Assembly: GCF_024449025.1 (NCBI RefSeq)
Contig: NZ_JAHLKM010000003.1
Coordinates: forward strand, 62,001 to 126,000
DNA from: Natronomonas aquatica
Lineage (GTDB): Archaea > Halobacteriota > Halobacteria > Halobacteriales > Haloarculaceae
DNA: 64,000 bases
Direction: 5' to 3'
A program made the position numbers and the translations under genes. Of the stretch, positions 38,196 to 41,412 are shown in pieces (positions within the stretch are counted from its first letter, which is position 1; every line of letters starts with the position of its first letter). Under the pieces are notes generated by a model that was not told the origin of the DNA, did no database searches, and saw only the letters and a list, made by a program, of their open reading frames with translations.

Positions 38196-39200
38196 ATGGT
38201 TACGTTCCTGGCCGGCGGGACGGGGACGCCGAAGCTCCTGTGGGGCGCCGACGGCGTCTTCGATCCGGGCGAGACGCCCGTCGTCTGCAACACCGGCGAC
38301 GACGTCGAGATGGGGGGGCTACTCGTCTGTCCCGACGTCGATACGGTACTGTTCTCGGAGGGCGGGATCCTCGATCGGGAGACGTGGTGGGGGATCGGTG
38401 GCGACAGCACCGAAACCCACGGGGCAATCGGTGAGTTGGCCGAGGACGCGGGGCTCGACCCCGGCCCACGGTACCTGTCGGACGACGCACAGACTTCCGG
38501 ACGGGAGATCGCCCGCTGGCGACGCTTCTCGGGCGTCGCTGAGTTCATGGAGCTCGGCGACCGGGATCGGGCGGTCCACGTCACCCGGACCGGACTGCTC
38601 GACGAGGGGAAGACGCTCACCGAGACGACGGCGACGCTCGCCGAGGCGCTCGGCGTCGACCGCCCCGTCTTGCCGATGAGCGACGATCCGGTGGCGACGA
38701 TCGTCCACACCGACGAGGGGCCGATGCACTTCCAGGAGTTTTGGGTTCACCGCCGGGCCGAACCGTCGGTCGATCGGGTCGAGTACCGGGGTGCAGACGG
38801 GGCCGAACCGACGTCGGCCGTCCGGGAGGCGCTCGATGCCCCGGTTGTGATCGGCCCTTCGAACCCCGTGACGAGCATCGGGCCGATGGTGGCGATGGAC
38901 GCCGTCCGGGCGGCCCTGGAGTCGACGCCGGTCGTCGCCGTCTCGCCGTTCGTCGGCGACCGGATCTTCTCGGGACCGGCGGGCAAACTCCTCGAGGCGA
39001 CCGGATACGAGGCCTCCACGGCCGGCGTCGCCGAGGCCTACCCCTACGCCGACGCGTTCGTCCTCGATACCGACGACGACACGGAACTGGACCGGCCGAC
39101 TGTTCGGACCGATACCGAACTCGGCTCGCCTGCCGACGGCGAACGCGTCTGTCGGGCCGTCCGGGAGGCGCTCGGGACCGTCGGCGCGGAGGTGGTCTGA
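38196..39200 (+). CDS. cofD: 2-phospho-L-lactate transferase (F420 synthesis)
   Basis: 334 residues. [50 protein letters not shown] and [13 protein letters not shown] are all CofD motifs. The enzyme joins an activated lactyl (or enolpyruvyl) phosphate to the deazaflavin Fo, forming F420-0. Its TGA overlaps the ATG of the next gene by one base, so it is the first gene of a four-gene overlapping operon. The F420-using LLM enzyme at 53871 is a plausible consumer. Confidence 0.95.
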
Positions 39201-39991
39201 TGCCGGCGTTCGACCCGCCCGTCGCCGCCGCCTCCCTGTCGGGGGAATCCGACGCCGAATGGGCTCGGAGGGCCGCGCCGTACGTCGGCTGTGCGTTCCT
39301 CGGCGGGATCGCCCTCGAGGACGCGACCAGGGCGGCGGCCCGAAAGCTCCGCGAACGCGACCGGACGGAGTTTCTGCCGCCGGACCCGATCGCCTTTATC
39401 GACGCGCAACTGGCGGCGCTTTCGGACGTCGACCTCCGTCCGGGGATGAACGTCCGGAGCGCGGCGCCGGAGCCGGTCGCGGCCGCCGCTTCAGTCTGTG
39501 CCGATCACGGGGCGGTCCTCGAGATCAACGCCCACTGCCGGCAGGCGGAAATGTGTGCGGCGGGGGCCGGCGAGACGCTTCTGGCCGACGGCGATCGGCT
39601 CTGTGAGTACGTCGCCGCCGCGGCAGAAACGGGGGCGACGGTGAGCGTCAAACTCCGGGCGGGAGTGGCCGGCGTCGACCCCCCGGCGCTCTCGGCGCGT
39701 CTCTCCGGAGCCGGCGCCGATCTGCTGCACGTCGACGCGATGGACAGCGAACCGGTCGTCGCCGAGATCGTCGACGCCGCCCCCGACGCCGCCGTGATCG
39801 CCAACAACGGCGTCCGGGACCGGGCGACCGTCCGGGAGTACCTCGAGTACGGGGCCGACGCCGTCTCGGTCGGCCGTCCCTCGGACACCCCGGCGGTCCT
39901 GGCGCGTGTCCGGACGGCGGCCCGGGAGTGGTTCGACGGACGAACGGAACGAACAGAACGAACGGAACGGGGGGCCCGCACCGATGCGTGA
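39200..39991 (+). CDS. TIM-barrel protein related to NifR3/tRNA-dihydrouridine synthase
   Basis: 263 residues, short for a true Dus enzyme (about 320). LEINAHCRQAEMCAAGAGETLL contains the cysteine-bearing loop of the Dus/NifR3 class, TVSVKLRAGVAGVD an FMN-barrel strand and VIANNGVRDRATVREYLEYGADAVSVGR the phosphate-binding end. It belongs to the archaeal NifR3-related group whose function is unproved. The C terminus ends in an Arg-Thr-Glu repeat. The gene overlaps cofD by one base and the next gene by eight. The operon makes a coenzyme role at least as likely as tRNA modification. Confidence 0.75.
   Translation: MPAFDPPVAAASLSGESDAEWARRAAPYVGCAFLGGIALEDATRAAARKLRERDRTEFLPPDPIAFIDAQLAALSDVDLRPGMNVRSAAPEPVAAAASVCADHGAVLEINAHCRQAEMCAAGAGETLLADGDRLCEYVAAAAETGATVSVKLRAGVAGVDPPALSARLSGAGADLLHVDAMDSEPVVAEIVDAAPDAAVIANNGVRDRATVREYLEYGADAVSVGRPSDTPAVLARVRTAAREWFDGRTERTERTERGARTDA
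39938..39970 (+). repeat. Short GAACGGAAC-type tandem repeat
   Basis: Imperfect ten-base units (GAACGGAAC, GAACAGAAC) at the 3' end of the TIM-barrel gene encode an (Arg-Thr-Glu)3 tail just before the overlapping start of the next gene. Confidence 0.5.
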
Positions 39992-40817
39992 TCCGGCCGA
40001 GAACGCACAGTTGGCGCTGTTGCTCGAGGTGTCGGGGACGCCGAAGCCGGGAAACGTCGACCGTCACCGCGAGTACGAGGACCTGCGCTTCGAGCAGTTC
40101 ATGGCCGGCGCCGTCGGGGCGCTTCCGGGTCTGCAGTCGGCCGCCGACGGCGACCCGCTCGGCGCCGCCTTCGAGGACGCCGTCGAGGGGATGAGCGAAC
40201 AGTCGGGCGGCAACACGCAGTTCGGCGCGCTGTTGGCGCTGGCCCCGCTCGTGGCCGCGGCCGCGACCGACCGGCTCACTCCCGAGGCCGTCGCGGCCGT
40301 CGTCGGGGCGACGACCGTCGCGGACGCCTGTGGGTTCTATCGCGCCTTCGAACACGTCGACGTCGCCGTCGACGATCCGCCGGAGGGGGCCGACGATCTG
40401 GACGTACGTCGGGGACGCGACGCCGTCGGGACCCTCAGAGCGCGGGGACTGGCGCTTTCGGATATCATGGAACTGTCGGCCGACCACGACGGCGTCGCCG
40501 CCGAGTGGATCGCGGGCTTCGAACGGAGCTTCGAGGCAGCCGGGTGGCTGCTGGAGGACGACGGACCGGTATATAAACGCGCCTCGCGCGCGTTCCTCCG
40601 GCTTCTGGCGGCCGAACCCGACACGTTCGTCGCCACGAGGAACGGCGAGACGGCGGCGACGGAGGCGACACGGCGGGCGCGGGCCGTCCTCGACGGCGAG
40701 GAGGATCCCGAGGAACTCGCCGCCGAGTTCGTCGAACGCGATATCAACCCCGGTACGACCGCCGACCTCACGGCGGCGGCGCTTTTCATCGCCCTCGAAC
40801 GCGGGCTGGAGGTGTGA
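39984..40817 (+). CDS. Triphosphoribosyl-dephospho-CoA synthase-like (CitG family) protein
   Basis: 277 residues. LLLEVSGTPKPGNVDRHREY near the N terminus is the CitG signature (xxPKPGxVDxxxxG), and GNTQFGALLALAPL corresponds to the second conserved helix. True CitG makes the citrate-lyase prosthetic precursor, but no citrate lyase genes are here. Archaeal CitG-like proteins are instead found with C1-coenzyme genes. It overlaps the preceding gene by eight bases and stops one base before the DUF447 start. Substrates unknown. Confidence 0.8.
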   Translation: MRDPAENAQLALLLEVSGTPKPGNVDRHREYEDLRFEQFMAGAVGALPGLQSAADGDPLGAAFEDAVEGMSEQSGGNTQFGALLALAPLVAAAATDRLTPEAVAAVVGATTVADACGFYRAFEHVDVAVDDPPEGADDLDVRRGRDAVGTLRARGLALSDIMELSADHDGVAAEWIAGFERSFEAAGWLLEDDGPVYKRASRAFLRLLAAEPDTFVATRNGETAATEATRRARAVLDGEEDPEELAAEFVERDINPGTTADLTAAALFIALERGLEV

Positions 40818-40818
40818 C

Positions 40819-41412
40819 GTGACGGACGCCGAGTGGCCCCTCGAACTCGAAGGCGTCACCGAGTCGGTGGTGACGACGCTCGGGCCGAACGGCCGCTGGA
40901 ACGTCGCCGCGCTCGGGCTGTTCGCCGGCGACCCGGTGACCGCCCGGACCTGGGGTCGGACGCGGACGCGTCGGAACTTCGAAACCGAGGGGGGCGGCTA
41001 CGTCCAGTTCGTCCGGGATCCGGTCGATTTCGTCGACGCCGCCTGTTCGATCCGCGAGGAGGACGAGCCGGTCCTACCGAGTGCCGACGCGTGGGCGTCC
41101 GTCGACGCCGGGGCGATCGACCGCGGGACCGAAGGCGGGACGGAGTGGGTAGAGTGGGAACTACACCCGATCGAATCGGCGATCGAACGTGAAACCGTGT
41201 CCACGACGAATCGCGGGTACTACGCCGTGATCGAGGCGACCGTCGCCGCCTCGCGGCTCGATGTCCCCGAATACGACACCGAGACGCTCAGAGAGCGCAT
41301 CGCGTACTTCGAGGGCGTCGTCGAACGCTGTGGCGCTCCCCGCGATCGGGCAGCCTTCGAGCGCTTCCGCGAACACGTCGATCTCGGTGCCGGGAACGGA
41401 GACGAAGAATAG
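40819..41412 (+). CDS. DUF447-family (split-barrel flavin-like) protein
   Basis: 197 residues from GTG one base after the CitG-like stop. ESVVTTLGPNGRWNVAALGL and VQFVRDPVDFVDAA match the N-terminal beta-barrel of DUF447, which resembles FMN-binding split barrels; the C-terminal third is helical (DTETLRERIAYFEGVVERCG). No activity is established for the family that I know of. It is the last gene of the cofD operon. Confidence 0.8.
   Translation: MTDAEWPLELEGVTESVVTTLGPNGRWNVAALGLFAGDPVTARTWGRTRTRRNFETEGGGYVQFVRDPVDFVDAACSIREEDEPVLPSADAWASVDAGAIDRGTEGGTEWVEWELHPIESAIERETVSTTNRGYYAVIEATVAASRLDVPEYDTETLRERIAYFEGVVERCGAPRDRAAFERFREHVDLGAGNGDEE

Follow-up and report, generated by a model that had tools for sequence, protein, structure and literature searches.

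Gene content of the locus

The window analyzed here, a 64,000-nucleotide stretch of a Natronomonas aquatica contig, contains four consecutive genes on the plus strand, which an earlier note had described as an overlapping group of cofD, a NifR3-like barrel gene, a CitG-like gene, and a DUF447 gene. Inspection of the reading frames confirmed that all four are open and lie in that order, and the matches to Pfam and NCBIfam profiles, by which families were assigned, agreed with the families given. The first gene, cofD (38196–39200), has 1 base in common with the DUS-like gene (39200–39991), which overlaps citG (39984–40817) by 8 bases; a gap of 1 base separates citG from the DUF447 gene (40819–41412), for which the start codon is a GTG at 40819 and the stop codon occupies 41410–41412. 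The cofD product was assigned as the 2-phospho-L-lactate (or PEP) transferase of F420 synthesis, with a TIGR01819 score of 345.5 bits (cut-off, 257).

The CitG-family protein matched PF01874 over its full length (227 bits, profile positions 1–284 of 284) and contains the motifs PKPGNVDR, GGNT.FG, and INPG.TAD. The full-length match would speak for a true triphosphoribosyl-dephospho-CoA synthase serving citrate or malonate decarboxylating enzymes; scores against the CitG/MdcB equivalogs, however, were 24–43 bits, far under every cut-off (272–477 bits; e.g. 43 versus 282 and 33 versus 272 bits), and the neighboring genes belong to F420 and methanopterin metabolism, with no lyase subunits among them. 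The protein thus shares a family with CitG of citrate lyase and MdcB of malonate decarboxylase but stands in another gene context, and on scores and context a citrate-lyase CitG identity was ruled out as having practically no chance of being correct. For the DUF447 protein, both parts of the family were recognized (PF04289 and PF20766; DUF447_N, 80 bits, and DUF447_C, 69 bits). Structures of its relatives (2iml, 2ptf, 3b5m, and 2nr4) are FMN split barrels, placing it in a family of split-barrel flavoproteins.

The DUS-like protein was assigned as an FMN-type TIM barrel of the MJ0144 family from matches to Pfam Dus (32 bits) and TIGR00736 (112 bits, below the cut-off of 219), along with a predicted model; against the DusB equivalog it reached 20 of the 293 bits needed. 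The catalytic Cys, Lys, and His of DUS barrels (C113, K151, and H177) are conserved in nearly all alignment rows. The model (pLDDT 94.8) retrieved DUS, DHODH, and DPD barrels in a structure search, with Z scores of ∼23–24 for DusB and DusC, and the barrel alignments ended near residue 245 of the 305–318-residue DUS chains, such that the C-terminal tRNA-binding domain is absent. Methanogen orthologues carry an extra methanogenesis-marker-9 domain, which the haloarchaeal proteins lack. A short repeat of the GAACGGAAC type (window 39936–39970), just ahead of the citG start, gives the DUS-like protein a TERTERTER tail.

DUS, DHODH, and DPD barrel enzymes reduce or form activated C=C bonds, a chemistry with which the predicted fold of the DUS-like protein would be compatible. 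Because PEP is a substrate of archaeal CofC in vitro, a dehydro-F420-0 reductase, "CofX," is required (PMC6450877). The DUS-like gene lies directly after cofD and remains where citG–duf447 has been lost, and its product is put forward as a tentative candidate for this missing archaeal enzyme. The likelihood was kept low because genome G018 has lost the DUS-like gene and kept cofD, and because many F420 producers have no recognizable copy. Absence calls by TIGR00736 are unreliable (the divergent copy at locus L186 was missed). In mycobacteria, the dehydro-F420-0 reductase is the C-terminal domain of FbiB (PMC6450877), likewise an FMN protein tied to the CofD/FbiA step; it has a nitroreductase fold rather than a DUS/DHODH barrel, and the shared function is a prediction only.

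Conservation of gene order

A scan of named genomes, which returned haloarchaea only and placed Natronomonas species closest, gave 80 loci. citG and duf447 were adjacent and co-directional in every one, and all four genes occurred in the order cofD–dus–citG–duf447 in 65, so the arrangement is not due to chance; the earlier proposal that the four genes form one unit was supported. Several Natrialbaceae have citG–duf447 apart from cofD–dus, and a search of plasmids gave a single Natrinema record. Beyond haloarchaea, most of the other families inspected within the phylum have dus–citG–duf447 or citG–duf447 as a contiguous block, with citG–duf447 away from cofD in many methanogens. RFAP synthase, CitG, and DUF447 all gave matches in Sulfolobus acidocaldarius, Methanocaldococcus jannaschii, Methanosarcina acetivorans, and Haloferax volcanii; in the last of these, rfaps is HVO_2628, mer HVO_1937, and cofD HVO_2479. 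The cluster is ancient, kept across haloarchaea and reaching far into methanogens, and its conservation extends well outside the genus, to almost the entire order and a large part of the phylum.

In two loci of deep relatives (L190 and L194), cofD–dus–citG–duf447 is followed by the genes for a dihydromethanopterin reductase, DmrX, and a PHP protein, with a DHPS-like gene also found after citG–duf447 in L190; scores in the deep relatives were 286 bits for DmrX (TIGR02700) and 285 bits for the DHPS-like protein (TIGR00284). A third locus (L187) has cofD and citG–duf447 followed by the DmrX, PHP, and DHPS-like families. These neighbors, as well as the mer–citG–duf447–rfaps clusters described below, bear out the suggestion that CitG and DUF447 are connected with methanopterin chemistry. 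The cluster consists of two parts, of which cofD–dus belongs to F420 and citG–duf447 to methanopterin-type chemistry. In L194, cofE precedes cofD; it encodes a long CofE with ∼220 extra N-terminal residues (L194:10727–12106). In L187 and L188, where the DUS-like gene is absent, genes for a DUF763 protein and a YfcE-type phosphoesterase lie between cofD and citG.

Joint loss of citG–duf447, RFAP synthase, and Mer

Most haloarchaea encode a homologue of RFAP synthase that passes the TIGR00144 subfamily cut-off; against the equivalog NF040726 the score was 172 of 328 bits, below the cut-off. The glycine-rich loop and the equivalent of R26 are kept in these homologues, and D19 is replaced by N, a change that leaves partial activity in the Methanothermobacter thermautotrophicus enzyme (PMC6787355). 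The Mer protein of genome G000 scored above the cut-off for NF002619 (479 versus 276 bits) and below that for TIGR03555 (323 versus 349 bits).

Among 157 haloarchaeal genomes of good quality, RFAP synthase and CitG were both present in 153 and both absent from three (hypergeometric p ∼ 6 × 10−6, phylogeny ignored), the remaining genome being a 94%-complete draft without RFAP synthase only. The three genomes, G008 and G060 of one genus and G119 of another genus of the same family, are all 99% complete and also have no DUF447; the co-loss amounts to about two to three independent events. The Mer orthologue was absent from the same three, as well as from G349, a draft of the G008/G060 genus; the remaining haloarchaea of the first panel, 34 in all, have it. 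Across a wider panel of 74 genomes, Mer and RFAP synthase were associated at p = 1.9 × 10−5, again ignoring phylogeny, and the exceptions were incomplete drafts. Among families of incomplete metagenome-assembled genomes, RFAP synthase and Mer were present without CitG in two (f31 and f37), and all three were missing in one (f39). Four f31 drafts (G197, G207, G217, and G224) are ∼1 Mb in size and have 8–14 Mer/LLM-family matches, with neither Mch nor CitG; RFAP synthase and Mer were found in three of these four.

The genomes without the set retain cofD, dus, Mch, and FolC–FolP. In each, citG–duf447 is gone from between dus and a semialdehyde-dehydrogenase-type (asd-type) gene, with both neighbors kept and no detectable remnant of the pair; in G119, a deoxyhypusine synthase gene occupies this position, as in its relatives. 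The loss of citG–duf447 while cofD–dus stays shows that the two halves are separable. Mch had been expected to vanish along with RFAP synthase, CitG, and DUF447, and its retention indicates that it is not tied to the proposed carrier.

This pattern bears on the earlier suggestion that the unit builds or attaches an unrecognized cofactor or else modifies F420. That CitG and DUF447 act on F420 or an F420 precursor would agree with the operon that they share with cofD in most haloarchaea and in certain further lineages, but citG–duf447 was lost from genomes that keep cofD–dus, lies away from cofD in the Natrialbaceae and methanogens mentioned, and goes with RFAP synthase and Mer. A role as F420 modifiers was rejected on the pattern of loss and is considered very unlikely, leaving the cofactor branch of the suggestion as the better supported.

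Linkage to mer, cofE, and metE

In one genus (g122), mer, citG, duf447, and rfaps lie together on a single strand in G293 (two copies), G334, and G339; gene families were verified on G334, and the clusters were cross-compared. Immediately upstream in G293 and G334, and pointing away from the cluster, are the genes for a split methionine synthase, metE-N and metE-C; no metE was seen beside the cluster of G339. The two metE–mer–citG–duf447–rfaps copies of G293 are diverged and lie on two contigs. Nearly all the other mer loci inspected in haloarchaea have cofE just before mer. A stretch of ∼4 kb spans rfaps, cofE, and mer in G018, and in Halolamina cofE–mer lies near cofD–dus–citG–duf447. Unlinked haloarchaeal rfaps genes had neighbors (a KaiC-like ATPase, TFIIS, and dihydroxy-acid dehydratase) that gave no functional hint.

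The split metE pair was found in 32 of 34 Mer-positive genomes, whereas G008 and G060 have the catalytic MetE half only and G119 has no metE. The linkage and this metE pattern tie RFAP synthase, CitG, and DUF447 to F420-dependent methyl synthesis and methionine. In G008 and G060, the sole MetE-type gene sits in an archaeal A-type ATP synthase operon (L243 and L242, respectively).

The thinning out of metE in the same genomes, and the small size of these genomes (2.1–2.4 Mb), could also mean that the joint loss merely reflects methionine auxotrophy or genome shrinkage, with CitG and DUF447 having a different role in the metabolism of methionine or CoA. We regard this as improbable: G134, G268, and G287 are comparably small yet retain the set, and the association in other lineages with RFAP synthase, DmrX, and DHPS-like genes points to a pterin.

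A proposed methanopterin-like pterin

Gene order, co-loss, the deletions within a conserved neighborhood, and the clustering of mer, citG, duf447, rfaps, and metE were observed directly, and suggest a second methyl carrier beside folate in haloarchaea. From them we infer that most haloarchaea make a methanopterin-like pterin in addition to folate, that citG–duf447 takes part in synthesis of its side chain, and that F420-dependent Mer uses the carrier, a reading to which we assign a probability of roughly 0.6. Confidence in each single reaction is lower than that in the pathway as a whole.

CitG enzymes make an α-ribosyl bond from ATP, and methanopterin bears an α-ribosyl phosphate on its deoxyribitol; CitG therefore fits this step of methanopterin synthesis. 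Reduction, for example of the ribofuranose to deoxyribitol, would fit DUF447, an FMN split barrel by its solved relatives, although this assignment is much less certain than that of CitG. The cluster would join two coenzyme pathways that converge on a single enzyme. F420 would be served by cofD and dus; citG and duf447, together with the RFAP-synthase homologue encoded elsewhere, would build the side chain of the pterin. 4-Aminobenzoate and PRPP would be joined by RFAP synthase, as is known for this enzyme (PMC6787355). The CitG-family protein, a proposed α-ribosyl (triphosphoribosyl) transferase given its PF01874 match, its motifs, and its tracking of RFAP synthase, would transfer an α-ribosyl (triphosphoribosyl) group from ATP to the side-chain sugar alcohol. 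The DUF447 protein, which we propose is an FMN reductase in this pathway, would reduce a group of that side chain. Mer would turn the methylene carrier into its methyl form, from which the methyl group would pass to homocysteine through the split methionine synthase (MetE-N/MetE-C).

The proposed pathway contradicts the published annotation, in which haloarchaea are stated to contain folate and not methanopterin, Mer and Mch are assigned to folate, and the RFAP-synthase homologue is given no methanopterin role (PMC4500146 and PMC8305020). The earlier premise that haloarchaea are not known to make C1 coenzymes of the methanopterin type is also put in doubt. The published assignment was made because folate has been measured in haloarchaea; a second pterin could nevertheless exist alongside folate, and Methylobacterium extorquens has reductases for both kinds (PMC6193120). 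For Mch, the present data are in line with the folate assignment; for Mer, they conflict with it. A literature search gave no paper that connects CitG or DUF447 with C1 metabolism in haloarchaea.

A further explanation is that RFAP synthase, CitG, and DUF447 decorate folate, or a folate-derived pterin, into a form accepted by haloarchaeal Mer and MetE, with no methanopterin made. Haloarchaea make folate and keep FolC–FolP everywhere, existing annotation treats Mer and Mch as enzymes of folate, and a search with PF00809 gave FolC–FolP and a second FolP-like protein as the only haloarchaeal matches, with no methanopterin-type (TIGR00284) DHPS seen among them. RFAP synthase, however, uses 4-aminobenzoate that is not yet attached to the pterin, which leads to a non-folate skeleton (PMC6787355), and the same trio is found in methanogens and Sulfolobus. 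Folate decoration was judged unlikely, though a more serious contender than the alternatives above.

A methanopterin-like carrier would resemble the methanogen system of tetrahydromethanopterin biosynthesis and Mer in its RFAP synthase family, CitG, DUF447, and F420-dependent Mer, and citG–duf447 adjoins DmrX and DHPS-like genes of that pathway in some lineages. It would differ in serving methionine synthesis beside folate rather than methanogenesis, and in the DHPS-like gene missing from the haloarchaeal PF00809 matches. The sulfopterin system of S. acidocaldarius has the same trio as haloarchaea and, unlike them, no match to Mch or Mer. In methylotrophic bacteria, orf19 and orf20, which we take to be CitG- and DUF447-like, form part of an island with the H4MPT set. 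These two genes of unknown function lie beside a gene for an AfpA/DmrX-type flavoprotein (orf19–orf20–afpA–orf21–orf22; PMC3615186), in an island that, unlike the haloarchaeal cluster, is bacterial and serves formaldehyde oxidation.

If CitG performs the α-ribosyl step, then Thermococcales, the tail of whose carrier has no α-ribosyl group, would be expected to have RFAP synthase without CitG. The proposed pathway, if correct, would overturn the accepted folate-only view of haloarchaeal C1 carriers and would give a physiological role to haloarchaeal F420, which has been called enigmatic (PMC8305020) and undetermined (PMC8498797). For steps of methanopterin synthesis to which no enzyme is assigned, it would also provide concrete candidates, testable in a genetically tractable aerobe, H. 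volcanii, rather than in methanogens. It is doubtful that every part holds jointly, namely that haloarchaea have, next to folate, a second C1 carrier (a methanopterin-type pterin dedicated to F420-dependent synthesis of the methionine methyl group), that CitG and DUF447 are the missing methanopterin enzymes generally (α-ribosyl transferase and side-chain reductase), and that the DUS-like barrel is CofX.

One of the two FolP proteins had been expected to disappear along with RFAP synthase, CitG, and DUF447; the second FolP-like protein is divergent in G008, G060, and G349 but ordinary in G119. In G119, G028, G078, G310, and others, it is encoded a few kb from a paralogue of the F420-dependent LLM oxidoreductases, an association seen in many haloarchaea that possibly represents a second pterin/F420 cluster.
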